Of a stretch of 64,000 nucleotides of DNA, positions 13,304 through 46,185 are shown one piece after another. The stretch is from Taiwanofungus camphoratus (taxonomy: Eukaryota; Basidiomycota; Agaricomycetes; Polyporales; Taiwanofungaceae), in NCBI GenBank assembly GCA_003999685.1, contig CP021225.1, forward strand, positions 1,550,001 to 1,614,000. Direction: 5' to 3'. The position numbers and the translations under genes are program-made. The notes beneath the pieces were generated by a model, which was not told the origin of the DNA, made no database searches, and saw nothing but the letters and a program-made list of their open reading frames with translations. The stretch's first letter is position 1. The number at the start of each line of letters is the position of its first letter.

Positions 13304-16300
13304 ATGCCTGATCGCCGCTTACTTCCATCTCTCCCGCGAAGTCAGGCTCGCTCGAGTGCCACCTTCCGTCCTCCGCCGTTGGACGGATCGTTGACTTTAC
13401 CAGAGATATACGACTGGCACGGGCAGCACAACCCAACCCATTCTTTCTTTGTCTTCGCCAATGATAATGGCAGCGTTCAAAACATCTCTATGCGTGAAGT
13501 CGCACGCGCGATCCATGTTGGTGCAAGGCTCATCAGAGACCGCATGCAATGGAAGCCGGAAACGGAGGCCTCAGTAGTGGCAATCCTTTCACCCTCAGGT
13601 ACCTGATTGACTGCCCTTCACTTTCTGCCGTGAAGGCTGACTGAACTTGAATCATCAATGCAGATGCGATCCCTTTCATTGCGATGACCACGAGCATCAT
13701 GCGTGCTGGCTATACAGTATTCCCCCTCTCTATTCGTAACTCTCCTGCAGCCATCGCGTATCTCATCGACAAGGCCAAAATCAAGCATATCCTCGTCGGG
13801 CAGGAGCAAGCTATGCTCGATCTCGTGAAGGACGCATTGGACATTTTGAGATCTCAGTACCCATCTACGCCTGTGCCAGAGTCCTCGCCCCAACCTGTTT
13901 TCAAAGACCTGTTCCTCCCTTCGTCTGAGCGATCTATTAAAACTAACGATCTTTTATTCGAGTTCAAGGGGCCAGATTCACCTGCTATGATTCTGCATTC
14001 GTCAGGTTCGCACTCTTCGATGGATCATTTTAAACATAATCTGACTGGTACATGACAGGATCAACGGCGTTCCCAAAGCCCATAACCTTCACCGCGAATC
14101 GTCTCATCGAGTTGGCCGTAAGCCCATGGTTCGGCGAGCGCGATCTGACAGGTCGTACTTTTGCTCTGCACAGTACACCCATGTTTCATGCCATGGGCTC
14201 CATGGCAACGCTTTGGGCAGTGAGTTTATTTTCAACCAAGTTTCTTGATACTGATATTGATGGAAGCTGACGAGGGCGAGAACAGATGTCTTGTGGTCTT
14301 ATTTTGGGTGTATTTGCACCTCAGTTTCCCCCTCCTGTACCAACATCAGACTCGATAATCGAGGCGGCTAAAGCCGTCAACGGCGATTATATCGTCGCTG
14401 TCCCCGCTGTGATTGAGGTATATCCATTCATTCTGGTCTGCTTTAAGCATCGTGTTGACATGCACGCAGACTTGGGCTCACAGTCCCGAATATGTGAAAT
14501 GGCTAGCGACTCGTGAGGGATTGGTCAGTTTGCCTTGTACGATGTCTTTGCTTTGGCACCTACTAACTCTGTCAAACAGTATTATGGTGGCGGGCCTTTG
14601 AATAAGGAGACCGGTGACTACCTCGCGTCGCAGGGCGTCACTATTCTGAATGGTTACGGCAGGTGTGTTCTCAACTTACCAGTGTCGATCGCTCACCGAT
14701 AAGCATTTGTTCACTTATTCGACGACACTAGTACAGAAACCGGAGCCGTAGGTGTCGCCTTGCCTGGTATGGTTCTCCTTCCACCACAATCACGAGAGAC
14801 TTATGATGATGTTACCCCGTGCCTTTAGCCCAGGTTACGAACGACTGGGAATATATCAGACTGTCGAAACAGCTGAACGTGAAGATGATTCCTTGGGGAG
14901 GCAACTCCTTCGAGCTTGTGGTAGTTGTAAGTAATATTGTACAGCCTACAGCCTTGGTTGCGACGGGCATTGATGGTCTCGTTCAGTCTAATGAAAATAG
15001 CCGACCGAGCATGATAAACACCCAGGTTGATGGGGTTGATGCATGGTCTACCTCTGATCTTTTTGTTGAACACCCTACCAAACGGGGCTATTGGAAGGTG
15101 TTCGGTCGCACTGATGATCAGATTATGCACAGTACTGGCGAGAAGGTCAGTGTAACTTGTATAGCAAGGTCCCAAATTTCCTCACGATAATGCCATAGAC
15201 GAACCCAGGCCCTTTAGGCTAGTGCGATATACTAGAGCATCAGAACTATCGGGACACTAATATATCACAGAAAGCATGCTGAACAAAGATCCACATGTCT
15301 TTGCGTCGGTCATGTTCGGTCGTGGGCGATTTCAAGCTGGCATTGCTGTCGATCCCAAATCAGAGTTCAAAGTCGATCCCTCGGACCAAAACAAGCTTGC
15401 TGAGTTCAGGAACATGATCTGGTGCGTTGAGAGCTGTTGAACATTTAGCACTTGCAACAATATTTATGCACTTTCTCTCAGGCCCACCATCGAGAAGATG
15501 AATGAATATGCCCCGCAGCATTCTAGAATCTTTAAAGAGGTCAGCGGAACGGAATTCAATATCGGATGATTTGACGATACCATTCCTTGTAGATGATCCT
15601 GGTGGCAAAACCTTCGAAGCCATTCCAGTACACTGCCAAGGGCACCGTGCGTCGTGGGGTCACGCTAGAAGACTACAAGGATGAAATCGACGCATTATAC
15701 AACGCAGTAGAGGAAAGCGCACAGTCCAATATTCCTCCACCTGCGAGGTGGGACATTGGCTCTGCTACCGACTTCGTTCGTGCGGTCGTGGGAAAAGTGA
15801 TGGTGCATGCGGTGCAAGGCGGCGATGACATATTCCAGCACGGATGCGACAGGTAATTTTTCTGAGATGCCTGTACTCCTAACAAATACGTGGTTGCTCA
15901 TGATATTATCGTTTAGCCTTCAGGCAACCTGGATACGCAACACGCTTTCTCGTGCGTTGCACGAATCGGCAAAGGTAGACACCCGCAAGATTACAAGTAA
16001 CTTTGTGTACGACCATCCGACGATCGGCAGCCTCGCTTCCGCTGTCTCGGCCCTCGGACTCGGCACCAGTAAAGACGAGGGTTCATCTAATATCTCACTG
16101 TCGGCGAGAACAGATGCAATGCGTGCCATGGTGGCGAGGTACAGTGGAGACTTCCCAGCCCATCAGGCTGGAAGTGGAAGACCAAAGGCCAGTGGGGACG
16201 TCGTATTGGTGACAGGAACGACCGGGAGTTTGGGATGTCATCTTCTCAGTCGCCTGGCCTCGGATCCTGAAGTCGGGCGTGTGTACGCGTTCAACAGAGC

Positions 16301-17614
16301 ATCGAGGGACCTCAAGGCGGTAGGCGAGAGACAAAGATTGGCACTGATCGATCGCGGGCTTGATGCGGGTGTACTGGAATCGAAGAAGGTGGTTGTGCTC
16401 GAAGGCGATCTGACGGCTGTCAACTTCGGACTGGCTGAAACCACCTACAAAGAGGTTAGAGCGTGAAATCTCTCCAGATGTCAGATTCGCTTAATATTTG
16501 TTCTGACAGCTGCATCAATCTGTGACGCACATCATCCACAATGGTATGTGTCGATTGTTTCCATTTCGAACACATCTAAAGGACTTTGTCTACTTGGATC
16601 ACAGCTTGGCGGGTTGATTTCGCCATCGGTCTGTCGTCTTTCGAGCCTCAGGTCAAGGCTGTGCGCTGCTTGATCAACTTTGCTCTATCTTCACCACTTC
16701 CTGTACCACCTCGGCTGTGTTTCACTAGTTCGATGAGTGTCTTCTCGAGTTCGTGAAGAGCACATTCTAGTTTGACAATCGCATGCTGACCCTCATATCG
16801 ACCCGTGTAGATTTGCCTTGTAGTGAAGTGGGGCCTGAACATCCGATCGAGCCCGAACTTGCTGTCGGCATGGGCTATGCAGAGTCTAAATGGGTGTCTG
16901 AACAGATCCTGTACAAGGCTGCGGAGAAGTCATCGTTGAAGACTATGGTCATTCGTGTGGGCCAGATCTGCGGAGGAATGGATGGGGCTTGGAATGCACA
17001 CGAATGGTTCCCGTCGATGGTGCAGAGTGCAGCGAAATTAGGATGCTTCCCGGACGACAACAGGGTGGGTCGTGTTCTTTCCCTCTCTTGCTTGCATGAT
17101 CTGAGAACGAATGTCACAGGGAGTGGACTGGATCCCACTTGAGCTCACCGCAGCGGCGGTCATTGACTTCCGCAAGGCCACGAACAGCACGAACACAGTG
17201 CATTTGGTCCACCCTCGTCCGGTCTCCTGGCATGTACTCGCCGCTGTTGTCGCAGCCGAGCTTTCCGTCCCGCTGGTGTCATACGATGAGTGGCTCGGGA
17301 AGCTTGAGCAGACCGCCAGCTCCATTTCTGACAGTGTACATGAGAAAGGGCTGAGAGCGGAGTCGGAGAGGGATACTGTGCGCAGCCTGCGTGCGTTGCA
17401 ACTACTGGACTTGTTCAAAGGCATGGCAAAGAGTGCGTCCGACACGTCTGCGAGGCTGGCGTTGGGGATGGCGGAGCTGGCTGTCACGAGAGCTGTGGCT
17501 GCATCGCCCACCCTGGCGGACCCCGACGCTCGACAGCTGGGCGCCGGGGACGTGAAGCGATGGCTCGGATACTGGCGCAAAGTCGGGTTGTTCTCGGGCT
17601 CTCCTTCGTCTTGA
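13304..17614 (+). CDS. NRPS-like reductase (A-T-R), copy 1
   Basis: Eighteen exons (13304-13598, 13664-14005, 14059-14219, 14286-14417, 14470-14523, 14580-14662, 14732-14766, 14829-14926, 14987-15145, 15199-15217, 15271-15421, 15482-15539, 15593-15852, 15917-16454, 16510-16543, 16605-16752, 16824-17064, 17120-17614) join in frame to 1100 residues. The adenylation domain comes first, with A3-type SSGSTAFPKP near 211-220 (its codons split by an intron), FHAMG, and YGSTETG at 354-360. A carrier domain follows with the phosphopantetheine site GCDSLQA (Ser616). Last is a thioester-reductase/SDR domain with VTGTTGSLG near 713 and YAESK (Tyr874/Lys878). Such aminoadipate-reductase-like enzymes activate an aryl or aliphatic acid as AMP ester, load it on the carrier and release aldehyde with NADPH. 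The substrate cannot be read here. Intron 10 (15218-15270) starts GC instead of GT. The 3' half is near-identical to copy 2. Confidence 0.92.
15300..17596 (+). repeat. Inverted near-identical tract, left arm
   Basis: From about 15300 to about 17596 this matches the reverse complement of about 41918-44210 with only scattered single differences, including inside introns. Just outside, identity drops abruptly: at the 5' side within exon 11 of the NRPS-like gene, and at the 3' side a few codons before the stop. Confidence 0.9.
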
Positions 17615-18624
17615 TTTGATTTAGTTCTGAACGTAGATGTTTATGTACTTCTGCGATGGTTATGGAATTGCGGAATTGCATCATACGCACGACCCATCTT
17701 CCTCTGGTGGGCCGTAACCTAATTCAAGCCACAGGCATGCGGCACCGGGGTAACGTCTAGTGTGTTCCGCTTCGCTCGGTCCATCTGAAGTAATGAACAG
17801 TGAATCCCCCTCGCTGTCGCTTTACAACCGACACGATAGGCTTTTCACAGGCGTTCTCGTCTCGCTCGACCGTCACTGACAACGTGGACCACCTGTGCGC
17901 CACTTACCTGGAAGGATCCAGGGCATACCTAGGTTTCCGCTCACCGCAATCCGTGCAGTGTGCACTCGCTGGAAGGCATGCTTCGTTCGGTCTGGTCGTA
18001 GTAAAGGAACTATAGATCGGGGAGGTAGCACAACCAGCTACACGAGTCGTTACCTGCTTTTTTCCTGATGAAGACCTCCACGTTGAAATCGAAAGTAAAA
18101 TAAGACGAAAGTAAAATAAGACACTTACCGAGATATTTATATCAACCGAGGCTCAACCACAGTGTTGTACGCAAAAGTAAGTCGGTCAGTAATGAATCAG
18201 TTTGACCGTTCAGTTGAGCGCGCCAGTCACTGCGCCCATGATGGAAGCACAACCTCCACCTGAACCCATCAGCGCGTTCTCCGCAACCACGAGACGATGT
18301 TGGGTTCTGACCACCAGATGGGATCCAAAATTCATCAAGATGAATGCTTCCGACCTCCTTGATTGTCGGCTCCGAGCCAGCAGCATACGATAAGTATAGA
18401 ACAGGGTAACTATGGCAATGGACAGGACATGGGGGGATGCGCCATACCGCGCGGTCGCTTCCGTTTTGTTTTTCAAATTTGTCGAATAGCATGCTGTTCT
18501 TATATCTGTCCGGTTCGTTTTCATCGATTCCAAGGCTTTCTCCCTCTCCCCTTCCACCTGCCCGCCGGGCATTCACACTCCTTACCCCATCTCACTCTTT
18601 TTTCGCCGGATACACACACTTGAG
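17615..18624. other. Intergenic with short tandem repeat
   Basis: About 1 kb between NRPS-like gene 1 and AA14 gene 1, both on the plus strand. It contains two adjacent copies of a 16-base unit GAAAGTAAAATAAGAC at about 18090-18121. No other element was recognised. A CT-rich stretch just before 18625 probably lies in the 5' leader of the AA14 gene. Confidence 0.5.
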
Positions 18625-20623
18625 ATGATTTCCTCTGTGCCCGTTTTCCTATCGCTGGCGGCCCTTGCGCCTCTGGCATCTGCTCACATTGGTGGATACG
18701 CCTTTGTGCTCAAGTTTGCAAGCGTACTGACTTGTCGGGTGTCTGTTTAGCTTTCTGGCACAACAGCATGTATGGTTTCAACGTCACTGCGAACACGTTC
18801 TCCTACGACAATCGTCCTGTCGTTCCACTGATGCAGATGACCTTTCAGCAGTGGTGGTTCGTGAGTGCTCATTTCCGCATGATACATAATGTTCTCTGGA
18901 TGGTTCGATGGCGCTCAGAAACGTCAGGATGGGCTGGACTGTCTTTCCTTATCGATCTGTATCAAGTTGAGACGTACCTCTGACCATTCATCTGCAGCAC
19001 AACCACCTTGGCTACCCGCCCAATCCGGGAGACGTCTTCGAGCTGCCGGCCGGCCAGAGCGTGAACACCGAGCTATCGTGCGACAAGGGCGCCACCAGCT
19101 GGTGGAATTCCTCCTCCGGGTAGGCACCACGCGTACCTGCCTCTCCGTCCTCCCGCACTGACTGTATTTACTGGTAGCGGTGACGCCGGCTACGGCACCG
19201 ACTGGCCGTGCCCAGGGCAGCCGTCGTCCGAGTTCCACACCACGGGCGAGAGCGACGCGATGGGCTGCGCGCTGGCGATCGCGTACAAGCCGGACGCGAC
19301 GCAGGTGCAGCCGGACGACTTCGTCGTGTTCAGCATCAACCAGACCTGCGTGTGGACGCTCAACACGCTTTTCGAGGTGCCTGAGGCGATGCCGCCGTGC
19401 CCCGACGGCGGGTGCACGTGCGCGTGGTTCTGGATCCACTCGGTGCGTCGTGCCTTGTTGATGCATGGGTTGTTGATCAATGCTGATCGCTCGCGTGGCG
19501 CGACCCGTGCAGCCCGACAGTGGTCAAGAGCAGAGTGAGTGGCAATTCTGTGATGTGTGGCGGTTCTCTGATGCTGACCCTCGCTGCTTTGCTCTGCAAA
19601 GTGTACATGAACGGTTTCAAGTGCAACGTCACTGGCTCTACGAGCAACACACCCATCGGACAGCCTGCGCTTGCTAGGCGGTGAGTCTCCGTACCGGAAC
19701 ATTTTGTTTCGATCGCTGATGACTATGCAGCTGCGGTGCTGATCCCACCAACGGCCGCCCGAACGCAACTCCTGGAAACTGCACCACGGGACCGAAGTGG
19801 CCGTTCTACTGGGACCAGCTCGAGGATAACAACGTACGCTCGCCTTCACTTGCTCACCTCGTGGCCCGCTCCATGTGGTCTCCCTATCGTGTCACGCTGA
19901 CCACTTTCCATGCACAGATGTTCGAGGGCCTCTACTCGCCGCCCGTGTACAACGACCTGTACGGCTTTTTCGACGGCGCGCAGAAGGACATCTTCCAGGA
20001 CGCTTTCATCAACTCGCTCGGCGCGGGCAGCGGTAGTGGCTCGGCCGCCGCACCTACCGGTTCTGCGTCGTCGTCTGTTGCCCCCGTTCAGACCCCTGCT
20101 CCGACATTTGCGCCGGCGCCCGCTCCGTCCCCCTCTGCAACAGACGCGCCTGCGCCTGCACCTTTACCTGCAGACCCATCTTCGAGCAGTGACTCGCCTG
20201 CAGATCCGTCCTCGAGCAATGATTCGCCCGCACCATCGCCCACGGACTCGTCCCCGAGCGGCAGCCCTCCTGCACCGTCGCCCACGGACTCATTCTCCGG
20301 CAGTGACTCTGACTCTACCACGATCATTCCCACCTCCGTCGCCATCTCTTCTGTCTACTCCGGCTCCCCCTCCGTTCCGATCTCCAGCTTCAGCGTGACG
20401 CCTTCGAGCCCAGTCACCATCCCCCTCACCTCTGCAACCACATTGACGTGGTCAGTATTTGCCTATTGGATTGCGGTATTTGTGTCGTATACCTGACTTA
20501 TTTCTCTTTTATAGCCGACCACGCCCAACTGGTTCCTCCCGTCGCCGCCGCCGTAGCAACGACACAATAATTAAGCGCCACAAGCGCAGGCTCCATCATG
20601 TGCAGGACCACTCGTTCCACTGA
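18625..20623 (+). CDS. AA14 lytic polysaccharide monooxygenase 1
   Basis: Nine exons (18625-18691, 18751-18860, 18998-19119, 19178-19442, 19513-19534, 19602-19680, 19731-19833, 19918-20450, 20515-20623) give 469 residues. A 20-residue signal peptide ends ASA, leaving mature His1 ([15 protein letters not shown]). The AA14 core follows: [23 protein letters not shown] (mature His100), [27 protein letters not shown] and EQMYMNGF (mature Tyr177). These match the His-His-Tyr copper site described for AA14. A Ser/Thr/Pro/Ala-rich linker occupies roughly the last third. The final exon encodes Cys plus an Arg/Lys-rich tail ([10 protein letters not shown]). AA14 enzymes are secreted and were reported to oxidise xylan coating cellulose. 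This copy is shorter than AA14 gene 2 in the same window and has three more introns. Confidence 0.92.
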
Positions 20624-21430
20624 TCTCAACCTGGCCGTCAAAGAGCACTTCCGCTCGTCCATATCCCTCGCCCGAGGCCTTGATATCTGTATACCCTGCA
20701 GGCTCGAAGCGCTGCAGCCCAAGTGCGGGCCTTGTAGGCTCGCATACGTCCAGTTTGTTCGTCTTCGTCACACCGTTATCCACGTCCGTCCGGTTCTCGC
20801 TCTTGTCTCTTGCCCTGAGCGCTTGCGCCTTTTGTTTGGGTTGGCACGCGTTGGAGCTGGTATATCTTCTTGATCGTAACGTTCCTGCCACCTACTCCCG
20901 TTGCTCGCTTTCGTTCTCTTTTCTGGTCACGCGGCAATAGCATACTGTGCATAGTCCACATGTGTTCAATGTTTCGCACACAGCACGTTTTGAATTTGAG
21001 AAGATGTGCCATCTTTCTCGTGTTTGTCAAGTGCACCATAACGCGCACACTTCTTTCCTGTATGTAAGACGTGCATGAAGATCTTCGACATTCAACATTC
21101 AACCATTCCTCTGCTATCATCTATCTGGGTATATAAACCAACAGATACACGTACCTTGTTTGTTGGCTTTATCACTAACCAAATGCTTATCACTCGGTAT
21201 GAGCGGGAAAGACGAGATAAAGTCGAAAAATGTAAGGATTCGAGAGATCTGTTATAAAGTGTGAGGCAGAAAGTGAGCCGACACAGATAAAATTTGACCA
21301 CTAGAGTCGGAACCTGCAGGCCGGAAATAGCAGATCTCAACATAAATACTGTTTAGTTTTGGCTGTGGCGAGAGCAATGATACAGCCTGAAACTAGTCTA
21401 CACCTAATCATCACAACATATTTACAGCAG
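20624..21430. other. Convergent intergenic region
   Basis: Lies between the 3' ends of AA14 gene 1 (+) and the NCS1 permease (-). Short frames only, no recognisable feature. Confidence 0.4.
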
Positions 21431-23737
21431 TCAAGCCAGAACTTCCCTCACTTCTTCCTGGATACTCTTTTTGTCCTCATCGAGCTCCGAATGCCGGCTC
21501 GGACTGCTCTCTTCCTCCGCATCGATGATAGCTTTTTCAAGATATGTTTCTTTCGCAGGGAACAGCCTGGACGCGATGTAGTAGACAGTTGAGGCCACCG
21601 TGAACTGTAATGGAGCAAGGGCTCATCAGGCGACTAACATTAACAGAGGTGGCAGCTCACGCCAAAAATCCACGCAAAATCGAATACATGGGTCGCTGCT
21701 CCCACTTTGATCTTGGGGTTGATGGAATTGATCAACCCCGGGAAATTCGGTGGCACCGAACACACTATCGCGAGAACTGCACGCCAGTTCTTTGGCAAGG
21801 TTTATGGAGGTCATGAGGGCGATGCATAGCTCAGGGGGTGCTGGAACTTACGAAACCGTAGTGATATCGGTACCGACCATGGGGACGGTACATGGACGGC
21901 ACATCTACACGACATTTGTGCACGAGCCAGTACTGTTGCAAGACGCGGTCAGGGACTCAATCGCAGACTGTATCGTGACTGGACTGACATCAGTGATCAT
22001 GATTCCCGCGAAAGGACCGAGGAAAACTGTGTAGCCGTTCATGAAAGCGATGAAGCCTTGTGCACTGTACATATCCACAAATTATCAATATTCAAACATT
22101 CGTCTCGAATTTGAGGTCACTCAAGGATTAACGATGGATAGACCAACCTCGCGAGGATCTCCCAAGGACAAAGTGCCCACCCACCAAGAATCGCACAAAT
22201 CACTTGTCCTCTACGGATGTTGATGTACCTGGGGAAGAGGACCGTCATGTCGTTGGCAGCAGACAGCGAATTCGCAGAGATGTTGGTGCCGAGCGTGGCC
22301 AGCATGAACGCAGACGCGGCGAAAAACGCAGCCGCCCGGTTGTCCCATTCGTTGATGAGCTTGGTGGGGTCCCAGAGCACCTGGCCATACAGCACGATGC
22401 CTGCACTTGTGACCGCGATACCGATGAAGCCACAGAGAGTGAAGGCCACTGGGATGATCAGCAATTGGATGTATTGGCTGCATGTCGGATGCCCAAATCT
22501 TTGTGAGTGGGCGTCGATTCGATCATTGGAAAGGTGCGTACGCTCTCTCGTCTTGGGCATATCTCTGGTCACATAATGAGCTTTCACTATGAAAAGGGGC
22601 AGGTCTGAATCGCTTGCCGTGAAGTCCGGAATATTGACAGCAAGGGTTGAGTAGATGCCAAGTGCACTGTTTAAGGCACTTAACCATGCCCACGACATAG
22701 CACTTCCCGAGAGCGCAGAATGCTGTTCAAAAAGCCCTTGATTGGAGGGCACCTTTACGAATGCCCAAATTAACATCGCTAACCAGGCCGCAGGGACAAT
22801 GGCAGCTTTTGCGACGAAAAGCCAACGAATCCGTTGCGGAGAGATCAACATGAAAGGGAACTGAATAATGGCGCGTGCCATTTGTATTTATTAAGTGCAT
22901 TGCATATGTGAAAGAAAGCTTAGAGGTGATAGCAGAAGGGTGGTACTCACCTGAACGAGCCAATACAAGAAATAACACATAATTCCTGCAAGGTGTCATC
23001 CTATCATTCTAGTACGTAAAGTACCGAGCCCGACGTACCTGCAGTCGTGATATTCGCGCCTGGCGAGAGGTGATTCGGGAGGCGGGCAAGCGAAGGCCAT
23101 ATGGCTTTCAACATCTGGAATCTGCCATGAATAATGGTCTAGCCAATCGACCCTGCAGCGCCGCGAACCTGGTACATGCATTCCGACCCTGTATAGGTCT
23201 GTATGCCAAACCAGAACATGGACAGCACAACCCGGCTAATGACGCTGAAGTAGCTAAACCAGAACCCAAACGAGGAACGATTGAGGACCGGGAAGGCAAC
23301 ATGCAGGCGAGCACCGATCGTTCCGTTCAACACCATCACGATTGAGATGATGATATGACCGACTGCGATTGCTGGAAGAGCTTGTCGCCTGAAGCACTCC
23401 AGTATAAGATAAAGGCCATAATCCTCGACTTACACGCACCATGATAACCCAGTCGCTAGCATGCTCGAAGCAAGCTCCCAGACTGCAGCATTGGCTGCGT
23501 CAGAAATCCAGTACGCCACATAATTCCATGTGGTCCAGGACCGCTGTTGTTCGAATACAAGACGACATTTGAGAAATGCCGTGATAGCTTGTGGACATGG
23601 GACTTGCTCACACGATGGACGGGCACCGGATCCATATCCTTATTTGACCATCTGCTATTTGGTGCGAACGTCGACGATTCCGGCTCCAGGACCCAGCTCG
23701 ATGGTTTCAAGTAGGCGGAAGCGGACGACTTGGCCAT
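21431..23737 (-). CDS. NCS1-family permease (uracil/allantoin/purine type)
   Basis: Twelve exons starting at ATG 23737 and stopping at 21431 give roughly 550 residues, the usual size for this 12-helix plasma-membrane proton symporter family. Motifs in order are RWSNKDMDPVP, TWNYVAYWISDAANAAVWEL, FGIQTYTGSECMY, FPFMLISPQRIRWLFVAK, NIPDFTRYAQDERAQYIQLL (split by two introns), TLGTNISANSLSAANDMT, FPRYINIRRGQ, CPWEIL, GPFAGIMITDYWLVHK and NWRAVLAIV. These are hallmarks of fungal Fur-type uracil, uridine, allantoin or thiamine carriers, and the exact substrate cannot be told. The intron at 22565-22617 begins GC (ACG|GCAAGC) and is needed to keep DFTRYA in frame. The C-terminus is acidic and Ser-rich, as in carriers regulated by endocytosis. 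Confidence 0.88.
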
Positions 23738-24339
23738 AGTGACCAGGACCAAGGGATATCTGTCCACGACTCCATCCCCATATCCAAAGCAAATCCGCCT
23801 TATATCTGACAGATATGCCGCCGGAGACACTGACGCCCATGATAGTCAAAAGTTGGTCCCGATAAGCGCAATTGGGCCCCGGACTCTGATAACACTCCCG
23901 AGCCGGCGGCTGCCAGACTCACAGATTCGTTTATAGAGTCAATCGTGCCACAAAAGGCAGGTGTTGTGTTGAATATCTGTTCGCCCTACTCACAGCACAA
24001 CCGGTGGCATCACCGACGACCCTCTGAAGGTCCACTACGGCGTCCTGGCCGATAACCAATTGACCCCATTACGGTAACAGAAAAATAAACCATCCCAGGC
24101 AGCCCGTCGATGTCTGTTGTGAAAACGTCTATTGCGAGATCTACGGGAGCAGTTTTCTAGATCTAAAATCAGAGAGGTATACGACAAAAGCAGGGCAGTT
24201 AGCGAGATCCAGGATGGCACAAACGATAAAACCCTCTATATTTGACCTCAAGACGGAACACTAACACCCTATGTAGATATTAATACAGGAAAACAAGCAA
24301 AAAAGGAGATGAATAGATGCTTTTCAGACGGTGTCGTCA
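23738..24339. other. Intergenic, nothing recognised
   Basis: About 600 bases between the permease start and the 3' end of the SDR gene, both on the minus strand. It should hold the permease promoter. No clear TATA box or repeat was seen. Confidence 0.4.
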
Positions 24340-25424
24340 CTATAGCGAAGCACCCCCGCAGGTCTTGATGGTCTGGCCGGTGATATATTCACCCTCTTCC
24401 GAGGCTAAGAACGACACGAGCTTCGCGACGTCCTCGGGCTCCTGGATGCGGCCGAGCTTGATGTCGTTCTTGACACGCTTAGCCTTTGCGTCGCCTATGC
24501 TGATGCCCTCCTGTGTCGTGTAATATGTCAGTCATGCGAATTGGTTGGATGCGAAGAGATGACTGACGATCATGGCGAGTTCGCGGTCGATGTGGTCCCA
24601 CATGGGCGTGTCAACAATACCGGGGGCGTACGCTAAGAAATGAGCAGGAATCAGGACGATGCTACCGCAGCTCGCTGACACGTTGACCGACCATTCACTC
24701 TGATACCGTGTTCCGCCCATTCCTTCGCAGCAGCTTCTGTGAAGCCACGGACGGCGAACTTCGTTGCTCCGTATGGCGCGAGGTTCTCTGGAGATGCGAT
24801 CAGATATGTGCAGTTTCCGGACGTACCAGCATTACTTGGACTCACCCGCAGTGCGGTAAGAGGCAATAGATCCGGCGCCGATGATGCGCCCGCCGAAGCC
24901 CTGCTTCACCATCTGCTTTGCGGCTGCAATATGTGTGTTCATAAGACCGAGGACGTTGATTCGTACTTCGTTCTCGATGAATCTGTGAGAGCTCAGGAAT
25001 GAAATGAGTGTTTGTGACCGGAGCTCTTACTCAGGAGTGCATTCGAGAAGAGGCTTGACCTGTGTAACGCCGGCGTTTGCGACGCTGACGAAGAGGTGGG
25101 GCCCGAGTTTGTCTACCGTCTCGGCGATGGCGGCATGGATCTGCTTTGCATCTCTCACATCTGCGTGATCATGAGCGCTGGCTTGCACGAATACAATGCG
25201 GCACCGCGCTCACCGGCGATGACACTGATCGCTTTCCTCCCATACGACTCGATCTCCTTGATGGTATCGTCCACCTTCGCCTGGGCGGGCGGGATGTCCG
25301 CGATGGACACGTCGTATCCGTCTCTCGCAAGACGGCACGCGATGGCACGGCCGATTCCCTGGCTGCCGCCAGTGACAAACGCGATGCGGCCGAGTGCAGC
25401 CTTCACGGGGGATGCGTACGCCAT
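24340..25424 (-). CDS. Short-chain dehydrogenase, diacetyl/acetoin reductase-like
   Basis: Six exons (25424-25214, 25160-25031, 24982-24846, 24787-24692, 24632-24568, 24510-24340) give an intact 269-residue classical SDR. Nucleotide binding is by TGGSQGIG (residues about 18-25). The structural NAG motif is in VANAGVTQ, the catalytic Ser in AGSIASYRT, and Tyr/Lys in [12 protein letters not shown]. The block [15 protein letters not shown] is characteristic of meso-2,3-butanediol dehydrogenase/diacetyl reductases, and the C-terminus ends [13 protein letters not shown]. It would reduce a small diketone or hydroxyketone with NAD(P)H in the cytosol. Its true substrate could instead be an aldehyde or ketone from a neighbouring pathway. 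No targeting signal is visible. Confidence 0.88.
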
Positions 25425-34175: not shown

Positions 34176-34829
34176 CTATACGCATTCTTCTCGTCTGAGA
34201 TCGTCTTCGAGATTTACGATAGCTGCCTCTATGTCCATTTCAGCCTTTTCGGCGAAATATACTCGTATGTCATGTGCAGTCTTGCTAGACTCCCTCGCAA
34301 GTTCCGACCAACGAATTCTCTCTACAGCGTTCGGAATCAGCCATGGCTCATCCGAGAGCTTGCATCTCTTTGTGTCGATCTTCCCATACCTGTTCTTCTT
34401 TGTAAAGGAGATCTCTTCATAGGGATGCTTTGCCCTAACGTGTGAAACGAGCCTTTCCCCTCGATGGAATCGCACGCTACAACTTGGGTGAGGGCACAGA
34501 TAATGTCCCTGGAAATGACTTGCTCCCATATGTCTGTTACGACTTTTTTCGTCAGTATGTGGCTTGTGGCAGTCATCAATAAGGCAAGTAAAGGCAGGTA
34601 CAGCCGTCTGTTTTACACGAGGTTGCTCCTTGTCCTGCACATATACATTGCCTGATCTGATGGAAGGGTCCTGAGCATGTACGTTGTCCGGTACGCATGG
34701 GAGGTTCTGAGTATCCAAGTTGTTGTCTCGAGCATGTACATCGCCTGGTACGACAAGAGTAAGATCTGGAGTCTGTCGATTGTCCGATACGACAGATGCA
34801 TCGTCCTGCGTCTGTATGATCAGAAGGAG
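34176..34829 (-). CDS. Double C2H2 zinc-finger protein, paralogue 3
   Basis: The frame is open from 34829 to the stop at 34176. The N-terminal part is a degenerate 14-residue repeat (VSDNRQTPD, VPGDVHARD, VPDNVHAQD). Two canonical fingers follow, CLIDDC-x12-HMGASH and CPHPSC-x12-HVRAKH, then the basic segment FTKKNRYGKIDTKRC and a tail RIRWSELARESSKTAHDIRV shared with the gene at 30509-31793. The 5' end is uncertain. An in-frame TAG lies at 34830-34832, and a possible first exon starting MTDELDSNFDEL lies at about 34895, but no intron of normal length joins it. The gene may therefore have lost its start or use an exon further upstream. Confidence 0.58.
   Translation of the reverse strand, partial: LLLIIQTQDDASVVSDNRQTPDLTLVVPGDVHARDNNLDTQNLPCVPDNVHAQDPSIRSGNVYVQDKEQPRVKQTAVPAFTCLIDDCHKPHTDEKSRNRHMGASHFQGHYLCPHPSCSVRFHRGERLVSHVRAKHPYEEISFTKKNRYGKIDTKRCKLSDEPWLIPNAVERIRWSELARESSKTAHDIRVYFAEKAEMDIEAAIVNLEDDLRREECV
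34619..34800. repeat. Degenerate 42-bp tandem repeat within the zinc-finger gene
   Basis: About four imperfect units of roughly 42 bases containing a CATGTACGTTGTCC-type core (GCATGTACATCGCCTGGTAC and similar). They encode a 14-residue repeat in the zinc-finger reading frame. Confidence 0.55.
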
Positions 34830-34899
34830 CTATTCATAGGAGCGACAAATGGCACACCGCGAGTTCATCGAAGTTCGAATCTAGCTCATCTGTCATTTC

Positions 34900-36300
34900 A
34901 GATTTGATCGTTGCAATGCTAACGCAGCCTTGTTGATCTTGTTGATTCATTGGAGTGCGGTTTTTGGGGAGTGTAGATTGACGTTGGCATCAGGAACTGT
35001 TCTAGAGTGTTCACCATTATAAGAGTTCGAGTGGCCACGAGCCGCCTCTCCAAACAAAGCCGAAGACACTGATAAAATAGGAGGCCAGTCAGCTTAGTGG
35101 TACTTCCAGAAGAAGTCACGCGCATTAATTTAAAGCAAAAAGCTGTCAATTAGGAATATTCAGGCAGTGTTGGACTTTTTTGATTATGGCCGAGATGTCT
35201 ATGTACGTTTGTGGCGGATTCGCGTAGACCTTTTAAAGTCACAAGTGCACGTGTACTTGTGACAGTCGCGCGCTGTGACATCCTATTCGACGCGTTCAGA
35301 ATGCTCAACCTGAAAACTCCCGAAAGCCATTGGGCGCCGCGGCTATGTTAACGTTTTATTCAGCTTGCCCAGTCAACCTGGAATGAACAAATAACTATCA
35401 CAATCAGGTGTACTACCTAGCAATAACGACTACAATGAGCCGACACACACTAGCCTTCGAGCACCCAGTAGGAATGTGGTTCGTCATGCCGAAGATAGTT
35501 TCATGCAAAAAAAAGTTGATGTGAGGGTCTAAATATTAAAAATTGACATGATATTGAGGGGGCGAATGATTGTAAGAATCCACTTGAGCGGCGGCGCTCA
35601 TAGATCCCTTCGTTTCCTTCGGCGAGGTCTCAAGAGGACAACGCAGTTCAGAAATCGCTCTCCACTGAAATTACTTCGTAAAATTGTTGTGGAAGTCTAG
35701 TCCGGAGGCGAACATGCGTCGAAATGGGACCAAACCTTAGTTCTGTGACGTAGTCGAGTTCAGTGCACGATGCATACCGTGACATAGGTAACGAAGCTTA
35801 CCTGATTTTTTCAACCTTTGAATTCCCTGCTCTGGAGAAAGAGATAAGTTCAACATCATACTCTAATGTCGGCCACTGCCTTGGTCTTCCCGGTATTCTG
35901 TCGATCCGTATTGAGATAAACGAGCTACGTCCATATCAAATGAGCATCTTACTTATTTCAAGGATGCCTTTGACTGTGATGGGTCCGCCTGGCCGTTGAC
36001 TGCAGACAGTCTGGAATTTTTCTCCATTGTGGCAGCAGGTCATCCACGGTCTCCAAACATACGGGCCTACACAAAGTTCCGTTGCAAAAGAGCCATTGGC
36101 GGTATATGCAATCCCGGAGGATTTTGTCAACGCCGAAAAGGGAGGTATAGCTCTCAGAGCCCGGACTGGTGGCGCCACGAGACCATTCGACCTTGTAGAA
36201 TGCTGTTCTCTGCTCCGTAGTAGGTGTCCCTTGAGGTTGCAAAGTCAGTACCTACTACTATAGCTGTTTCTCAGTAAGAACAAACCTACCAATTCGCTTT
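34900..36300. other. Region without a supported gene
   Basis: Short frames only on both strands. No domain, transposon end or RNA structure was recognised. Confidence 0.4.
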
Positions 36301-36349
36301 CTTGTATAAATTTCTGAGGATTCAAGCAAGAGTCGGTGGAAAATTCGAA

Positions 36350-37970
36350 GTCGTCAAGCATGCTGTCCGTGGAAGATCCAGATAGATACATGTTTCAAAT
36401 TGAGTATTAGAGATAGCAAGTATTTGCGGAAGACGACTGAGGTGACAATGCACAAAGGAAGGGATTGGTCGGAGGCTTCAACCGTGCAACCATATTTAAG
36501 GTCTGGAAAGGAGGCCACTCGCAACCCTGCGACCGTAATCGTGCAGATGATTGTCTGACAAAGGGCCCATTGTCGATGACATAAAATTAGGGCGGCATTG
36601 GACCGTCGAGAGGCGCTCATAATCTCCGGAAACGGTGACGGTAGACGTTTTTCCGAAGCTGGCTGTGTCATGCCATGTCTTTGTCTCGTTCGATCGCACA
36701 TGAAATAAGCGAGGAAGTGAACCCTTAAACATGACATCAGCCACAAGCCTCTTGATCCGACCTTTGTCCACCGTTCATATCCAGGCTGCGGAGAACGCTG
36801 TGAAGTCCACGACGCGGAATGAAGTAGCCTGTAAACAAAACATCTCTCAGTACCATTGCTTTGTCCAGAACCATTTGCGGAGTTTCGAGCGCGACGAAGA
36901 TCACTTCTTCCGGAGAAGGCACAAGTCACCACTCCAAGCACCTAGAATGATACTGCCATATCAGGTTTCCAATTCAAAACGTCTGAGGGAGTGAAAGGTT
37001 CAACGCTGATGCGTGGCCCATCGGACGCGGACTGGTCACTCATTTTTAGAATGGGACTGTTTGGGAATACATTCACGACCCCTTGACTACAGCATGTCTC
37101 ATACATACCTCGAGCGTCATGTACTCGAAAAATCGAGACCTCTGCCGGCGTGTCATCGCTAATACGTCAGTTGTACACGTACACGTAGAACACGAATTGG
37201 ACGCACATACACGACATCATGTCTATGTTCCTGCGAAGGTGGAATCGTACAACGGACCTGTCGAGAATTCTGGCATCGTTCAAATAAATATACGGAAGTC
37301 ATATGAGACAGAACACAGACAAGCATCCTGCCAAAGCTCGATAAAGCAGCCATCGCAAAGAACACACAGTAGAAAGAGACCCTTGTTCGATCCGCAGGTT
37401 CACGGAATTGAGAACGAATCGGCGAAACGCTGAAATGATGAAGACATCCTTTCCACAGGTTACGACAGCTAGCTACCATTGCTGCGTCCACCAATATAAA
37501 TTCGAGGGTCTCCGAGCTAAAGGCGGCACCAAGAACCACAGCCTCTAATCTCTGTAGACCCAGACAAGGTCCCATGCCTGCTAGAAAGGATTCCTTTCCA
37601 CCAGTAGTTTCCACGACAAGACGGGATCAGTAGAAAATCAGACTCTCGATAAAGACTCACAAGTGGCGTAACCTCATTCACCGCCGTTGAACAGGCTTGG
37701 AAGTCCATAGTTAAGGGGTGACCATGACAAACGTTAGAGTACCCAAGGTGTCAATACAGTTTGAACTTCGGCCAGTGCTGTTGAGAAAACCAAAACAGAG
37801 ACCTTGCCAATTCTGTCTTCATTCTGGAAAAGACAAAGCGAGCTCTGCTCTCTTCCGGAATATGAGCATGGAATGATTGAGCAAATTTGGGCATCCACAT
37901 GAACCGTAACGCCGCTGGAGCGTCGCTGGGACTCGGAGCGGTGCGCAAATTCGAAGTGATCACTCACATC
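36350..37970 (-). CDS. Unresolved orphan, possible LRR/F-box-like remnant
   Basis: Coding-like minus-strand pieces. MDFQACSTAVNEVTPL at 37708-37661 joins through a normal GTGAGT...GAAAG intron in phase 0 to ESFLAGMGPCLGLQRLEAVV and LGAAFSSETLEFILVDAAMV (to about 37440). About 36922-36740 reads PSPEEVIFVALETPQMVLDK. About 36771-36500 contains SGDYERLSTVQCRP. An upstream piece, PAALRFMWMPKFAQSFHAHI, lies at about 37910. The leucine spacing hints at an LRR protein. No continuous model could be made and the region may be eroded. Confidence 0.28.
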
Positions 37971-38497
37971 CTGGCACTAAATAAGTACTTAACCTTCAAG
38001 TAGAGTTGATCAAATGAAATCTGGATCTGCATTGAATCGGATACAGAGAATCCGCCGAGAATCCACAGATCTTGGGCTGCACTAAATCGGCGTTCCCACT
38101 TGCCTATCAAAGTACATCAACTTAGGCGGACCGAATGCAATTGTATGTGTACAACAGTGGACCCTTCGTGTATGAGGTTGGACTAGCGTTTACATGGAAT
38201 GAGAGCGACAACAGGAGCGGAGTCATACACGATATACTGGTATTCGAGGTGGTGGCAGCGGGAGGAGAAGGAAGAGGATGTATAGCATAATTGAAACATT
38301 CGAGACGATAGCGGAGTAACCTGACCAAGAACCAATAAACCGACGAAGATGAAAGTGTGAACGCGACGAATACAATCAAAGGGGTGAAAACAGGGATCTC
38401 GTGATGTCTGCGGCGTGTATTGACTAAAATACAATTTGAATGATAACAATCGAAGCAAGACGGAAGAGGACCGGGCGGCACTGTGTATGATTGCCGC

Positions 38498-39582
38498 CTA
38501 CGATTTTTCCGCCTCTGGGACGGAAACGGTCTGCGCAGCGTGTATCGGTGTGTCGGCAGTTGTTGTGTGTGAAATGGCAGACGGGCTTGTGTGCTCTGCG
38601 GGATGTGAGGGAAGAGGGCCTGACTCGTGGAGGCGAAAAATCAGTTGACGGCAGGCACCCGCTGGCATAATACTGGGCGGCGAGAAGCCCTCTTCAAGGA
38701 CGAGGGTGACCTCGGGTGACGAACATAAGAGAGGAGCAACGGCGCTGCTGAAAGCATGTTGCTTACTTGCGCTGTGCGGGGCATCTTCGACAGACTGGAC
38801 AACGTTGGCCCTGGGCAGATTGAGGTGCGCGTCACTGCTGCCGTCGTTGACTTTGCAATTCAAAGTCGAACTCCTCGGTTCTGCCAGCGGGTGGGCGCAC
38901 CTCGGACTACTGGGAGGGTCGAGTGCCTGCAGGTGGAACGAAGGCAAACTACCACCTCTGCTGCGCGGGTATGCGGTAGGGGAAGCGACGGAGGCAATTC
39001 GGCACTTCTTGGCGAGCCCGGGAGGCATGGGCGGCTCACGGGGGTGTAGTTTGGGGTGGGTAGGGGAGTAGCCCCTGGGGTTCGCACGAGTACGAGGCAG
39101 AGGAGCCAGTGGGAGGGATGGGCCGATGGCGGGGACACCGAGGGAAAAAACGGAGGGGGAAAATGACGGGAGAGAGGTGGACAGCGGGATCTCAGGCTCG
39201 GGGAGGGCGGGAGGGGTAGGAAAGGGATACTCGAATCGCGGGGAGAGGTCGAAGGGCGTGCCCACAATGGAGGAAGGGGAGTGAAGATTGAGCTCGCCGA
39301 GGCAAAAATGGGGCTTGATATACGGATCTGAGTGGGCTGGGGGCTGGTCCGAATACGCCTGGGAGAGATAAGGGTAAGGATCGGACGGGGTGGAAATACA
39401 ACGATAACACTCACACTTGTCACTGCGTCCCCGGACTCGGCGGAAACCAGCACGATATCGTCTAGCTCTGGATCGGGTGTGGGTCCGCTGGTATCATCTG
39501 ATATGTTGTCGGAAACAGGGGTGACGAGCAGACCCTCGTCGGCAAACGAGATGGGGCGATATGTGGGAGGTACTGTGGGCAT
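38498..39582 (-). CDS. Pro/Ser-rich orphan protein
   Basis: Two exons, 39582-39415 and 39358-38498, join in phase 0 across a 56-bp GTGAGT...CCCAG intron, giving 342 residues with an ATG start and a stop at 38498. The first exon is acidic (SDNISDDTSGPTPDPELDD). The second is very rich in Pro, Ser and Leu (PFPTPPALPEPEIPLSTSLP) with no folded-domain signature, no signal peptide and no membrane helix. It looks intrinsically disordered. In composition it resembles the orphan at 48396-49265, without clear alignment. Function unknown. Confidence 0.6.
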
Positions 39583-41897
39583 CGACGAGAGCGAATAGCT
39601 GCAGCGGCTTTTGACGTCGTCAATGTTTGTGTGTACGATGTCTCGCAATAGATATACAGTCGGCCTGCCGGGTAGATGGTGAGAACTTGAGAAAAGTAGA
39701 TGGTGGAACTTCGGAAGCTGACCAAAACATTCCAGCCACTTTGGGCTTCAGACTTCCGCTACACTCAACAACACCAAATCTTGGATTCACAGATCCACTC
39801 ATGTAGCTGCATGATTCTGTGTAAACGTTTCGGCGCCCGTTCGACCCAACCTGAACGGACTCCGATACAGGTCCTATTTACCCACAAACACGCCTTCCGA
39901 CAGCGGCAGCTTCCCTCTTCGGTCATTTTGGGGCGCGGTGAGCGATTTTCTTGCGTCTCAACTAGAAAAATCAATAATAGACCGCCCTTTCTACCCATTG
40001 TATCGTAGCAAGGTCAGTCAGTATCGTGTCAACAAAACAGACACGCCTTAACATCCACCTTTTCATGGCCGACGTTTGACTTGCAGAAACCGTCTAAGTA
40101 AGCATCTAGCAAGATGGGAGAAGATTCGGAATCCGGCGATCACGACGACGGCAGGCATGACGATTATCGAGTCTTGAATCAGGTTGGTTTTCAAGGATGT
40201 TGCTACGCATTGAACTGTAGTTGCACCCATTGCGCCTTAAGATCGTATGATGAGCAGACCGGCCCTGCTAGTGCTGAACACCAACAATCGCTGTCCTCAG
40301 TCAAGGCTTGTATGGCCATCCCGCAGCACTTGGGGTGATAATTCTGCGATTTAGAAGATGCGTGACAAGCATCGATTATCAGTGCGGTTCATCTGCGATT
40401 CTACCATGATGCTATGACATTGTCCGTCACACCTACGTCCGTGTCTCCTTTTCACAATTGTCGCTACTTAATAACGCCGGACCTGGACAATTGCTTGCAG
40501 GTGCTACGAGATGCACCAGCTTGTACACCTTCTTTCAAATACATACATTTGACAGAACGGTACGCATTCGTTCTGATGCTTACTCTTATACCACTAGTCT
40601 CGGGGCTTGAGGACGTGCCAAATCCCGTACGAATTCATTGGCTGCCTATGCGTAGCCATTTCGTTAAGTCTCCTGCTCTCCCTAAAATTAAAAGGACCCG
40701 CAGCTCTAGAAGACTGCATGCCTGCTGCTTGTTCTATACTCCTTATCGGAGCAACGACATCCAGAACGATTGCTGAACATTGTAGTGCTCTGAATGACAT
40801 GTTTCTGATACATAGTAGACCAGCGCCACGAACGTTTCACCCCGTCATATCACGATATGGCGTCGTTGTGGCTGAGCTGCTATTGGTTCTCCTGGTGGGG
40901 ATGGTGTAGACTTGTTCCGGTCTCCGCAGTCTATGGTGTCAAAATGCTCCCGTGCGGTATGCTCTCCATACATGATCAGCAAGTTGGGGACGGCGGTGAT
41001 CCTTGATGAGCAATGTTCAGGGGCCTAGAGAAACTCATACTGGTGGTTGTGACAGATGACGGCTATTGATTGTTGAATTCATTATCTAGGCTCAACAGAG
41101 GTCCTCAACACATTATCATCGTCTCCTGGTTGCAGATCACCAATAAAGTTGCTCATTCTGTGGCCAACTCTAATTTTGCAAATGGTATGAATTGCGTGGT
41201 CGACCCCGAGCATCCGTGAAGTCTCGGTGTTTCTAGGAATGTCACCCCTGCCTCGCATATATTCTCCTTATTATAAGCTTTACAGCTCAACACTTTGCTC
41301 GTGCGGTGTCGTCGGGTTCGATCTGTTCCTAATTTCATGGAAATGTCTTCTCTGTACTTGGGACGTCGAGCATGTCCGCTCGCGTTCCGTTCTGTTTATG
41401 AGTCACATGTAGTGCAGGACTCGCGAAGCTGATGCCCTGTCGAAGGTTACTATGCATTGTGGACGAATTCCTACGAATTCCAGGTTCGGTCCTGCTGATG
41501 TGGAATATCCAATGCTTTCAGTAATGTAACAGATAAAACGGCTTAGATTCGTTTCATCAAAAGTGCGATGGTCTCACTGGCCTCCTGTGACACAGCAGAA
41601 TGTCTCTTGTCCCAGTTGACATCGAAGGCACACTGCTGAAAGCGCATCACCGCGTTTGTATCATCATTCACCATTTCAGACCCTTATTTTCCTTCTCCGA
41701 ATACGGGATTCATCCGGTCTCTGCGACTGGCTTGACCCAATTCAACATCTTTCCAGCACACGGTCTTGAAGGTGGTGTCCATTCTTGCTACAATATCGCT
41801 AGTGCTTTGAAGAGCCAATGGTGCTTCGTTTCACATTCATGTTCTGTAATGCGGACTACAAGGGCAAGCTCAACTAGCAGCTGCGCGCATCTCGACG
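39583..41897. other. Region without a supported gene
   Basis: About 2.3 kb. Two overlapping plus-strand frames at 40414-40776 and 40607-40909 include a hydrophobic LLLSLKLKGPAALED stretch but no start, splice pattern or family I can support. Confidence 0.38.
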
Positions 41898-44800
41898 TTA
41901 AGGTACAGAAGACCCAGAGAACAACCCGACTTTGCGCCAGTATCCGAGCCATCGCTTCACGTCCCCGGCGCCCAGCTGTCGAGCGTCGGGGTCCGCCAGG
42001 GTGGGCGATGCAGCCACGGCTCTCGTAACAGCCAGCTCCGCCATACCCAACGCCAGCCTCGCAGACGTGTCGGACGCACTCCTTGCCATGCCTTTGAACA
42101 AGTCCAGTAGTTGCAACGCACGCAGGCTGCGCACAGTATCCCTCTCCGACTCCGCTCTCAGCCCCTTCTCATGTACACTGTCAGAAATGGAGCTGGCGGT
42201 CTGCTCAAGCTTGCCAAGCCACTCATCGTATGACACCAGCGGGACGGAAAGCTCGGCTGCGACAACAGCGGCGAGTGCATGCCAGGAGACCGGACGAGGG
42301 TGGACCAAATGCACCGTGTTCGTGCTGTTCGTGGCCTTGCGGAAGTCAATGACCGCCGCTGCGGTGAGCTCAAGCGGGATCCAGTCCACTCCCTGTGACA
42401 TTCGTTCTCAGATCATGCAAGCAAGAGAGGAAAGAACACGACCCACCCTGTTGTCGTCCGGGAAGCATCCTAATTTCGCTGCACTCTGCACCATCGACGG
42501 GAACCATTCGTGTGCATTCCAAGCCCCATCCATTCCTCCGCAGATCTGGCCCACACGAATGACCATAGTCTTCAACGATGACTTCTCCGCAGCCTTGTAC
42601 AGGATCTGTTCAGACACCCATTTAGACTCTGCATAGCCCATGCCGACGGCAAGTTCGGGCTCGATCGGATGTTCAGGCCCCACTTCACTACAAGGCAAAT
42701 CTACACGGGTCGATATGAGGGTCAGCATGTGATTGTCAAACTAGAATGTGCTCTTCACGAACTCGAGAAGACACTCATCGAACTGGTGAAACACAGCCGA
42801 GGTGGTTCAGGAAGTGGTGAAGATAGAGCAAAGTTGATCAAGCAGCGCACAGCCTTGACCTGAGGCTCGAAAGACGACAGACCGATGGCGAAATCAACCC
42901 GCCAAGCTGTGATCCAAGTAGACAAAGTCCTTTAGATGTGTTCGAAATGGAAACAATCGACACATACCATTGTGGATGATGTGCGTCACAGATTGATGCA
43001 GCTGTCAGAACAAATATTAAGCGAATCTGACATCTGGAGAGATTACACGCTCTAACCTCTTTGTAGGTGGTTTCAGCCAGTCCGAAGTTGACAGCCGTCA
43101 GATCGCCTTCGAGCACAACCACCTTCTTCGATTCCAGTACACCCGCATCAAGCCCGCGATCGATCAGTGCCAATCTTTGTCTCTCGCCTACCGCCTTGAG
43201 GTCCCTCGATGCTCTGTTGAACGCGTACACACGCCCGACTTCAGGATCCGAGGCCAGGCGACTGAGAAGATGACATCCCAAACTCCCGGTCGTTCCTGTC
43301 ACCAATACGACGTCCCCACTGGCCTTTGGTCTTCCACTTCCAGCCTGATGGGCTGGGAAGTCTCCACTGTACCTCGCCACCATGGCACGCATTGCATCTG
43401 TTCTCGCCGACAGTGAGATATTAGATGAACCCTCGTCTTTACTGGTGCCGAGTCCGAGGGCCGAGACAGCGGAAGCGAGGCTGCCGATCGTCGGATGGTC
43501 GTACACAAAGTTACTTGTAATCTTGCGGGTGTCTACCTTCGCCGATTCGTGCAACGCACGAGAAAGCGTGTTGCGTATCCAGGTTGCCTGGAGGCTAAAC
43601 GATGATACTATGAGCAACCACGTATTTGTTAGGAGTACAGGCATCTCAGAAAAATTACCTGTCGCATCCGTGCTGGAATATGTCATCGCCGTCTTGCACC
43701 GCATGCACCATCACCTTCCCCAAGACGGCACGGACGAAGTCGGTAGCAGAGCCAATGTCCCACCTCGCAGGTGGAGGAATATTGGACTGTGCGCTTTCCT
43801 CTACTGCGTTGTATAATGCGTCGATTTCATCCTTGTAGTCTTCTAGCGTGACCCCACGACGCACGGTGCCCTTGGCAGTGTACTGGAATGGCTTCGAAGG
43901 TTTTGCCACCAGGATCATCTACAAGGAATGGTATCGTCAAATCGTCCGATATTGAATTCCGTTCCGCTGACCTCCTTGAAGATTCTAGAATGCTGCGGGG
44001 CAAATTCATTCATCTTCTCGATGGTGGGCCTGAGAAAAAGTGCATAAATATTGTTGCAAGTGCTAAATGTTCAACAGCTCTCAACGCACCAGATCATGTT
44101 CCTGAACTCAGCAAGCTTGTTTTGGTCCGATGGATCGACTTTAAACTCTGATTTGGGATCGACAGCAATGCCAGCTTGAAATCGCCCACGACCGAACATG
44201 ACCGACGCAAAAACGTGCGGATCCTTGTTCAGCATACTTTCTGTGAGAGATGTCAGTGCCCAGTTATTATTGACACTTTAATGTTGCCTTCTAACCTAAA
44301 GGCCCCGGATTTGTCTGATACAAAAACAGTAGTGAGTTTGAGAAGGCTTTCTTGTCCAGATTACACTGACCTTCTCGCCTGTACTGTGCATGATCTGATC
44401 ATCGCTACGGCCGAATATCTTCCAGTAGCCCGGCTTGGTGGGGTGCTCTACAAGAAGATCAGAGGTTGACCATGCATCGATTCCGTCGACATGGGTGTTA
44501 ATAACGCTGGGATGGCTGTATTCATTAGACTGATCAAGGCGGCACATAAGCACTTGTGGAAGCTGGTTGTTTAGGTTTGTAGTACTCACAACTATTACAA
44601 GCTCGAAGGTATTATTCCCATGGGGTACCATCTTCACACCCAGCTGTCTTGACAGTCTGAAGTACTCCCAGTCACTTGGAATTTCGGCTGAAGTATGGTG
44701 AAAATTATCAGTTTGTTGGGCCCGTGATATATGGCAACTCCTACCTGGCATGGTGACGCCTATAACTCCGCCTTCCGTACTTGCACAACGAAGTTGGTAA

Positions 44801-46185
44801 GCTGCGCCTGTCGGTAGCATCACTTAGCGAAGACTCACGTTCCATACAGGTTCACAACAGGGACGCCCTGTGACATGAGGTGGTCGCCGGTATCCTTATT
44901 CAAGGGACCGCCACCGTAGACCTTAGCGAATTGACATCAGCATGATGCATAAGCTCGTAGACGTCGTAGAAAAACAGACCAATCCTGCTCGAGTCGCAAG
45001 CCATTTGACGTATTCAGGATTGCGTGCCCAAGTCTATGAATATATCAGTGGAATGCCCAATGCGAGACCGAATAGCAGGACTTACCTCCATGATGGCTGG
45101 AACGGCGGGGACGTAATCGCTGTTGGTGGCCTTCGCCGCTTGTAACATAGAATCGGGCGTCGGCACATGAGGGGGTAACTTGGGTGCGAACACGCTGATG
45201 GCGAAGCCACAAGACACCTGCCCCGATCTCATAAGTTCACCAACGACATAAACTTGGTCAAAAACGGACTTACCGCCCAGAATGACACCATGGACCCCAT
45301 AGCATGAAACATGGGCATACTATGCAGAGAAAAGGTATAGCCCGTCAGATTGCGCTCGCCGAACCACGGGCTTGCGGCCAATTCGATGACACGATTATTT
45401 GTGAACGTAATCGGCTTTGGAAATGCCGTTGAACCTGCAATATGCCAGTCAAGACAATGCTCGGAATAAACCATGGGCGAGCACGAACCCGAGGAGTGCA
45501 GGATCATAGCAGGTGCATCCGATCCTTTAAACTCGTACGGCAGATTGCTAGTGACAGCACGCTCATCCGACGACGAATTATAGAGCTCTCCGAATACTAG
45601 CAAGGGTGAGGATCCAGGCACAGGGGTGGAAGGATACTTGGACTTCAGAATATCCAATGCGTCGTCGAGAAGATCATGCATAGCTTGCTCCTGCCCAACG
45701 AGGATATGCTTGACCTGGGTCTTGTCAATGAGATGTGCCACAGCAGTGGGGGAATTGCGTATAGAAAGTGGAAAAACTGCATATCCCGCCCTCATGACGC
45801 TTATGACCGTCGTACAGTAGGGGATAACATCTACAATGAGGGTTCAGTTAACCTCAGGTACAGAGCTTAGACATAGCAAACCATTACCTGAGGCTGCGAG
45901 AATTGCCACCACCGGTGTCTCGTCCACATCTGGTTTCCATCCCATGCGGTCTCTGATGATTCTTGCACCTACATGCACTGCTCGCACAACCTCGGAAAAG
46001 GATATGCTTTGGATAGTATCGTCATCGTTGGCGAAGACAAAAAACCGGTGGTTCGGATTGTGTTTCGCGTGCCACTCATATATCTCTGGCAAAGTCAACG
46101 ATCCGTCCAAAGGGGGAGGGCGGAAGGCGGTATCGAGATAAGATTGAGTCCGCGGAGGAGACGGAAGTATACGACGAGCAGGCAT
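41898..46185 (-). CDS. NRPS-like reductase (A-T-R), copy 2
   Basis: Starts at ATG 46185 (MPARRILPSPPRTQ) and stops at 41898. Exon order follows copy 1 and I found no break in the exons checked. The adenylation domain carries HSSG|STAFPKP (split by an intron), FHAMG, VYGGGPLNKDTGDH and LYGTTEGG (A5). The carrier site GCDSLQA is split between exons near 43670 and 43588. The reductase has VTGTTGSLG and GYAESKW. The adenylation half is a clear paralogue of copy 1 with many substitutions and different intron sequences (for example LYGTTEGG against GYGSTETG), so substrate choice may differ. From about 44210 to the stop the two genes are nearly identical. The intron equivalent to the GC-AG one in copy 1 starts GT here. 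Confidence 0.88.
41918..44210 (-). repeat. Inverted near-identical tract, right arm
   Basis: Partner of about 15300-17596, in opposite orientation. It covers the end of the adenylation region, the carrier and the whole reductase with introns. Differences seen are single bases, for example VVGK/VLGK and GGDD/DGDD in the carrier region and a one-base change in an intron run. Confidence 0.9.

Follow-up and report, generated by a model that had tools for sequence, protein, structure and literature searches.

The two facing reductase genes of the analyzed window (the whole stretch of DNA under study, 64,000 nucleotides, C6:1550001-1614000), here called A and B, are in all likelihood ancient paralogs whose 3′ parts were made nearly identical by recent ectopic gene conversion, which would have overwritten about 2.3 kb of one of them (rough probability, 0.88, judged from sequence comparison). 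Gene conversion between inverted paralogs is an already known process; the case itself is new. A preliminary description of the same DNA had reported the near-identity of the facing 3′ ends but missed the main inference, namely, that old paralogs alike only in their 3′ parts carry the mark of a conversion tract.

Two facing A-T-R genes and their shared tract

Gene A (13304..17614, plus strand, 1103 amino acids [aa]) and gene B (41898..46185, minus strand, 1104 aa) were each modeled by hand with 18 exons and contain neither stops nor frameshifts, the introns having been placed, without transcript support, at splice sites aligned between the copies. The same 17 introns fit both genes, the register is kept across the join between the dissimilar and the similar parts, and intron 10 of A has a GC-AG splice site in the hand-placed model. 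Both the facing geometry of the pair and the number of 18 exons per gene, as proposed in the preliminary description, are thereby borne out.

Domain content was assigned with Pfam for A and with NCBIfam only for B. In A, Pfam domains were found at aa 38-373 (AMP-binding), 443-568 (AMP-binding_C_3), and 714-952 (NAD_binding_4); its adenylation domain scored 105.4 bits with PF00501 and 129.5 bits with PF23562, both above cut-off, and its thioester reductase domain scored 104.5 bits with PF07993 (cut-off, 20.1). The reductase part of A also matches the solved chains 8aep_A and 4u7w_A, which we take to be reductase domains, the best match being 8aep_A (E 2.8e-46 over 682-1018). Between the A and R parts, GCDSLQAT at aa 613 is presumably the carrier motif with the phosphopantetheine serine, and Pfam returned no carrier-domain match there. 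For B, thioester-reductase and adenylation models were matched, all of them below their curated cut-offs among the matches listed, including TIGR01746 with 159.4 bits under a cut-off of 213.35. The identification of B as an L-aminoadipate reductase (Lys2, lysine pathway) was rejected, with TIGR03443 scoring 98.5 bits versus a cut-off of 1030.1. From their predicted domains, A and B are what looks like fungal carboxylate-reductase genes, having the order of A, T, and R in common with the carboxylate reductases described as fungal proteins of A-T-R architecture (PMC9605436, PMC11643632); the genome itself was taken to be fungal on account of its kinds of genes and its short introns.

Comparison of the window with itself yielded inverted arms at 15260-17082/42429-44251 (1823 nt, 98%) and 17079-17605/41907-42433 (527 nt, 97%), which are in effect a single tract divided by a one-base indel, together with four further, weaker pairs (72-82%) across portions of the remaining A and B. 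By blastn, the match extends over the whole genes (13303-17605 versus 46186-41907, 84.6%, E 0). In a global alignment, identity per 100 columns is 51-80% over 13319-15300 and 95-100% over 15301-17600, with an abrupt step at 15300. The homogenized tract beyond this step (left arm, 15300..17595, plus strand; right arm, 41917..44211, minus strand) contains 34 differences in 2296 aligned columns (15300-17595 versus 44211-41917), of which 20 are synonymous, 6 change an amino acid, and 8 are intronic, the sole indel being among the latter. The near-identity of about 2.3 kb claimed earlier for the facing 3′ ends thus held up in a proper alignment of the arms, in which no 100 columns fell below 95%.

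Within gene A, the tract starts at aa 470, a position in the A-domain C-terminal subdomain that lies past the GRTDDQIMHSTGEK segment beginning at aa 440. It takes in the end of the A domain, T, and R, and breaks off 16 bp ahead of the stop codon, beyond which A and B do not align. Upstream of it lie the diverged 5′ halves with the adenylation-domain core (13304..15299, plus strand, in A; 44212..46185, minus strand, in B). Protein identity is 70.8% over the 469 codons before the tract and 98.6% over the 634 codons from aa 470, the last divergent codons being counted in. Corresponding 2-kb flanks of A and B have no more than short stretches in common (up to 31 bp, with a best E of 0.012), which limits the duplication to the genes themselves. 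When the genome of origin was searched (33,194,378 bases, 15 contigs), the tract was found at full length in two places, and the next match was 70% over 224 bp.

Evidence for gene conversion and competing explanations

The step at 15300 affects coding and noncoding positions alike. Identical exon columns number 1030 of 1407 before it (73.2%) and 1860 of 1886 after it (98.6%), while identical intron columns number 312 of 549 (56.8%) and 402 of 409 (98.3%), respectively. Neutral sites (fourfold and intron) differ at 372 of 795 positions in the 5′ half and at 23 of 745 in the tract. Synonymous divergence (Nei-Gojobori with Jukes-Cantor correction, the 3′ set including a few codons beyond 17595) is 1.267 in the 5′ half versus 0.052 in the 3′ part, with dN/dS of 0.145 and 0.133. 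The duplication is therefore much older than the homogenization of the tract.

A third paralog, C, was used as a control; it lies on the minus strand of the contig that carries A and B (about 1417.6-1421.5 kb, in stretch L026, C6:1416500-1423500), some 140 kb from gene A. C matches A and B across the A, T, and R parts and is decayed, with no match to aa 312-367 of A and a stop inside one matched stretch. In exons, A-C, B-C, and A-B identities are 0.606, 0.622, and 0.728 in the 5′ half and 0.628, 0.629, and 0.986 in the tract; in introns, within this comparison, they are 0.491, 0.449, and 0.593 in the 5′ half and 0.512, 0.512, and 0.989 in the tract. The distance to C is hence nearly unchanged across the step at 15300. 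With C as the reference, the 33 substitutions in the tract comprise 11 that look derived in A, 10 that look derived in B, 9 assignable to neither, and 3 opposite a gap in C. More distant relatives that match most of A-T-R are found on contigs 10 and 8, relatives on contigs 12 and 7 match the R part only within the stretch fetched, and the search returned further reductase-domain matches.

Selection or a change in rate would have to affect introns and synonymous sites while sparing the distance to C, whereas a copying event explains all of these observations. If the T-R part had been kept alike by strong purifying selection, without any DNA exchange, its low dN/dS (0.133) would be in keeping, but in the 5′ half a similar dN/dS goes with a dS of 1.27, the tract introns are 98.3% identical (402 of 409), and C is about equally distant from A and B inside and outside the tract. 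Because introns and synonymous sites (dS, 0.052) were homogenized too, protein-level selection is excluded as the cause, and purifying selection as the sole cause is refuted, its probability being practically nil. The confinement of strong differences to the 5′ half could also be read as a recent whole-gene duplication followed by fast divergence of that half. However, divergence in that half is heavy at introns and at synonymous sites, dN/dS is low, and the distances to C are almost equal in both halves, making this order of events extremely improbable.

It is likewise very improbable, if slightly less so, that one gene is a chimera formed by inserting a copied 3′ piece behind a truncated A-domain gene. 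For Postia placenta, a basidiomycete, standalone A-domain proteins have been reported (PMC2823734), but the match of C to A and B takes in all three parts (A, T, and R), the same 17 introns can be placed in both genes, and the join is in register. An assembly artifact, whether through mixed arm reads, a copied arm, or a misoriented 24 kb, deserves somewhat more weight and is still improbable: arms of 2.3 kb at 98.5% identity are longer than short reads, but 34 differences remain between them, distributed as 17, 2, and 15 across three segments and evenly divided between the copies, and the flanks and 5′ halves differ between the loci, which supports the existence of the arms rather than the orientation of the interior.

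Under the preferred reading, gene conversion, A and B would be ancient duplicates maintained by purifying selection, and we infer that one copy served as the repair template for the other, such that a non-allelic conversion tract of about 2.3 kb replaced the 3′ part, beginning where the A-domain C-terminal subdomain starts, continuing across the carrier and reductase domains, and reaching close to the end of the homology. The outcome would be distinct A-cores ahead of a nearly identical carrier and reductase, and A and B may possibly activate different acids, as their distinct A-cores suggest. If synonymous change is clock-like, the age of the conversion would be some 1/24 that of the duplication, a rough upper value since dS saturates.

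Whether one event or several shaped the tract was considered from the spacing of its differences, with 17 in 15300-15970, 2 in 15971-16703, and 15 in 16704-17595. Over all sites, the longest identical run (494 bp) has a P of 0.008, and the smallest number of differences per 700-bp window, a size picked by the analyst, has a P of 0.002. At neutral sites, Fisher's test for 15971-16703, a segment picked after seeing the data, gave a P of 0.02, and the longest-run test was not significant (P 0.23). Owing to this last result, and despite the all-site signal, a second conversion event is not claimed.

Possible inversion of the interior and related systems

The interior between the two genes (17615..41897, 24.3 kb, as defined by arm spacing) is the segment that would flip upon a crossover between the arms. 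Inverted arms of 2.3 kb with an unbroken identical run of 494 bp are adequate substrates for recombination. Such a crossover would invert the 24.3 kb in register, leaving both reading frames intact, and would join each A-core to the tail and 3′ flank of the other gene. A 24-kb inversion is plausible from the geometry of the arms in this one assembly, and the strain-level inversion polymorphism put forward in the preliminary description stands as a prediction.

The nearest known case is the FF (flip/flop) region on chromosome XIV of Saccharomyces, in which a 24-kb interior lies between inverted, homogenized paralogous genes; there, homogenization is ascribed to non-allelic gene conversion, with crossovers flipping the interior, and the inversion polymorphism, which short-read assemblies overlooked, is kept genus-wide, yet the region stayed unflipped in the laboratory lines tested (PMC9731477). 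The A/B locus resembles it in having a 24-kb interior and near-identical inverted paralogous arms. In contrast, the FF arms are about 4 kb long with two whole gene pairs and are documented in both orientations (PMC9731477), whereas A and B are homogenized in their 3′ parts only and are known from one assembly.

By analogy, the tract might have been left behind by a crossover with inversion of the 24 kb, rather than by a non-crossover conversion, with both orientations possibly segregating; this is compatible with gene conversion as the best explanation of the tract. The facing inverted arms, the in-frame exchange, and the behavior of the Saccharomyces region (PMC9731477) speak for such a crossover. 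Conversely, a single assembly cannot separate a crossover from a non-crossover, only about 4% of conversions are crossovers according to a figure cited in the Saccharomyces study, and that study counted zero flips in about 53,800 mitoses and 950 meioses (PMC9731477), so the crossover is considered unlikely, although distinctly less so than any of the alternatives to conversion weighed above. Equally tentative is the wider conjecture of a flip/flop locus at which each inversion would swap the carrier-reductase halves, recurrent conversion would keep the tail uniform and the arms recombinogenic, the front ends would diverge, and both orientations would segregate.

Exchange between adenylating enzymes also has a counterpart outside fungi, in the bacterial wol cluster. 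As proposed for the A/B locus, exchange in the wol nonribosomal peptide synthetase (NRPS) took place within a genome between paralogous adenylating enzymes, with boundaries within the A domain (PMC9205934). The two cases differ in their outcome: in wol, replacement affected the substrate-pocket part and left the remainder as it was, whereas in A and B, the pocket part is distinct and the downstream part was made uniform. For fungal NRPS genes, gene conversion of domains was named in one sentence as a likely mechanism (PMC2823734), a paper that describes no case of such conversion in the parts covered here; the A/B locus displays the process proposed there, with a single tract mapped and a control at hand. 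A literature search turned up no report of gene conversion in fungal NRPS-like paralogs among the titles and abstract beginnings listed, with PMC2823734 and PMC9205934 touching on the topic.

The A/B pair represents a clean half-gene homogenization of two biosynthetic paralogs. Because one of its boundaries falls within the adenylation domain, it bears on how such enzymes can keep a common catalytic tail despite differing front ends. If the orientation of the interior varies among strains, the locus would provide another fungal example of flip/flop and would act as a local recombination barrier in crosses. On a practical level, trees or expression counts based on the 3′ part of A or B can confuse the two loci.

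Interior genes and other features of the window

The preliminary description had placed four kinds of genes in the interior, encoding an AA14 oxygenase, a permease, an SDR, and a zinc-finger protein. The first two were recovered with Pfam, namely, an AA14 oxygenase with exons within 18624-20496 on the plus strand and a cytosine/purine-type permease exon at 22117-22881 on the minus strand; neither an SDR nor a zinc finger was present among the 29 ORFs scanned out of the 138 interior ORFs of at least 75 aa. Only 3 of these 29 matched any Pfam family, and ten ORFs scanned outside the interior gave a single Pfam match, below its cut-off. A minus-strand ORF at 26471-26944 includes tandem repeats of 21 bp (26472-26807), corresponding to a 7-residue repeat (LHPATDR-like), and has no Pfam match.

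Two AA14 oxygenase genes are present on the plus strand of the window, one inside the interior (18624-20496) and one outside it (62231-63606), with stretches of 221 bp and 86 bp that are 73% and 78% alike, respectively. An element of about 390 bp at 46601-46991, labeled here as MITE-like, lies upstream of gene B at a distance of some 416 bp and is bounded by terminal inverted repeats of 41 bp (46607-46647 and 46951-46991). A genome search with this element returned 41 match rows, a count that includes its own rows and many covering the terminal repeats only, and five other copies span 351-391 bp at 88-90% identity.
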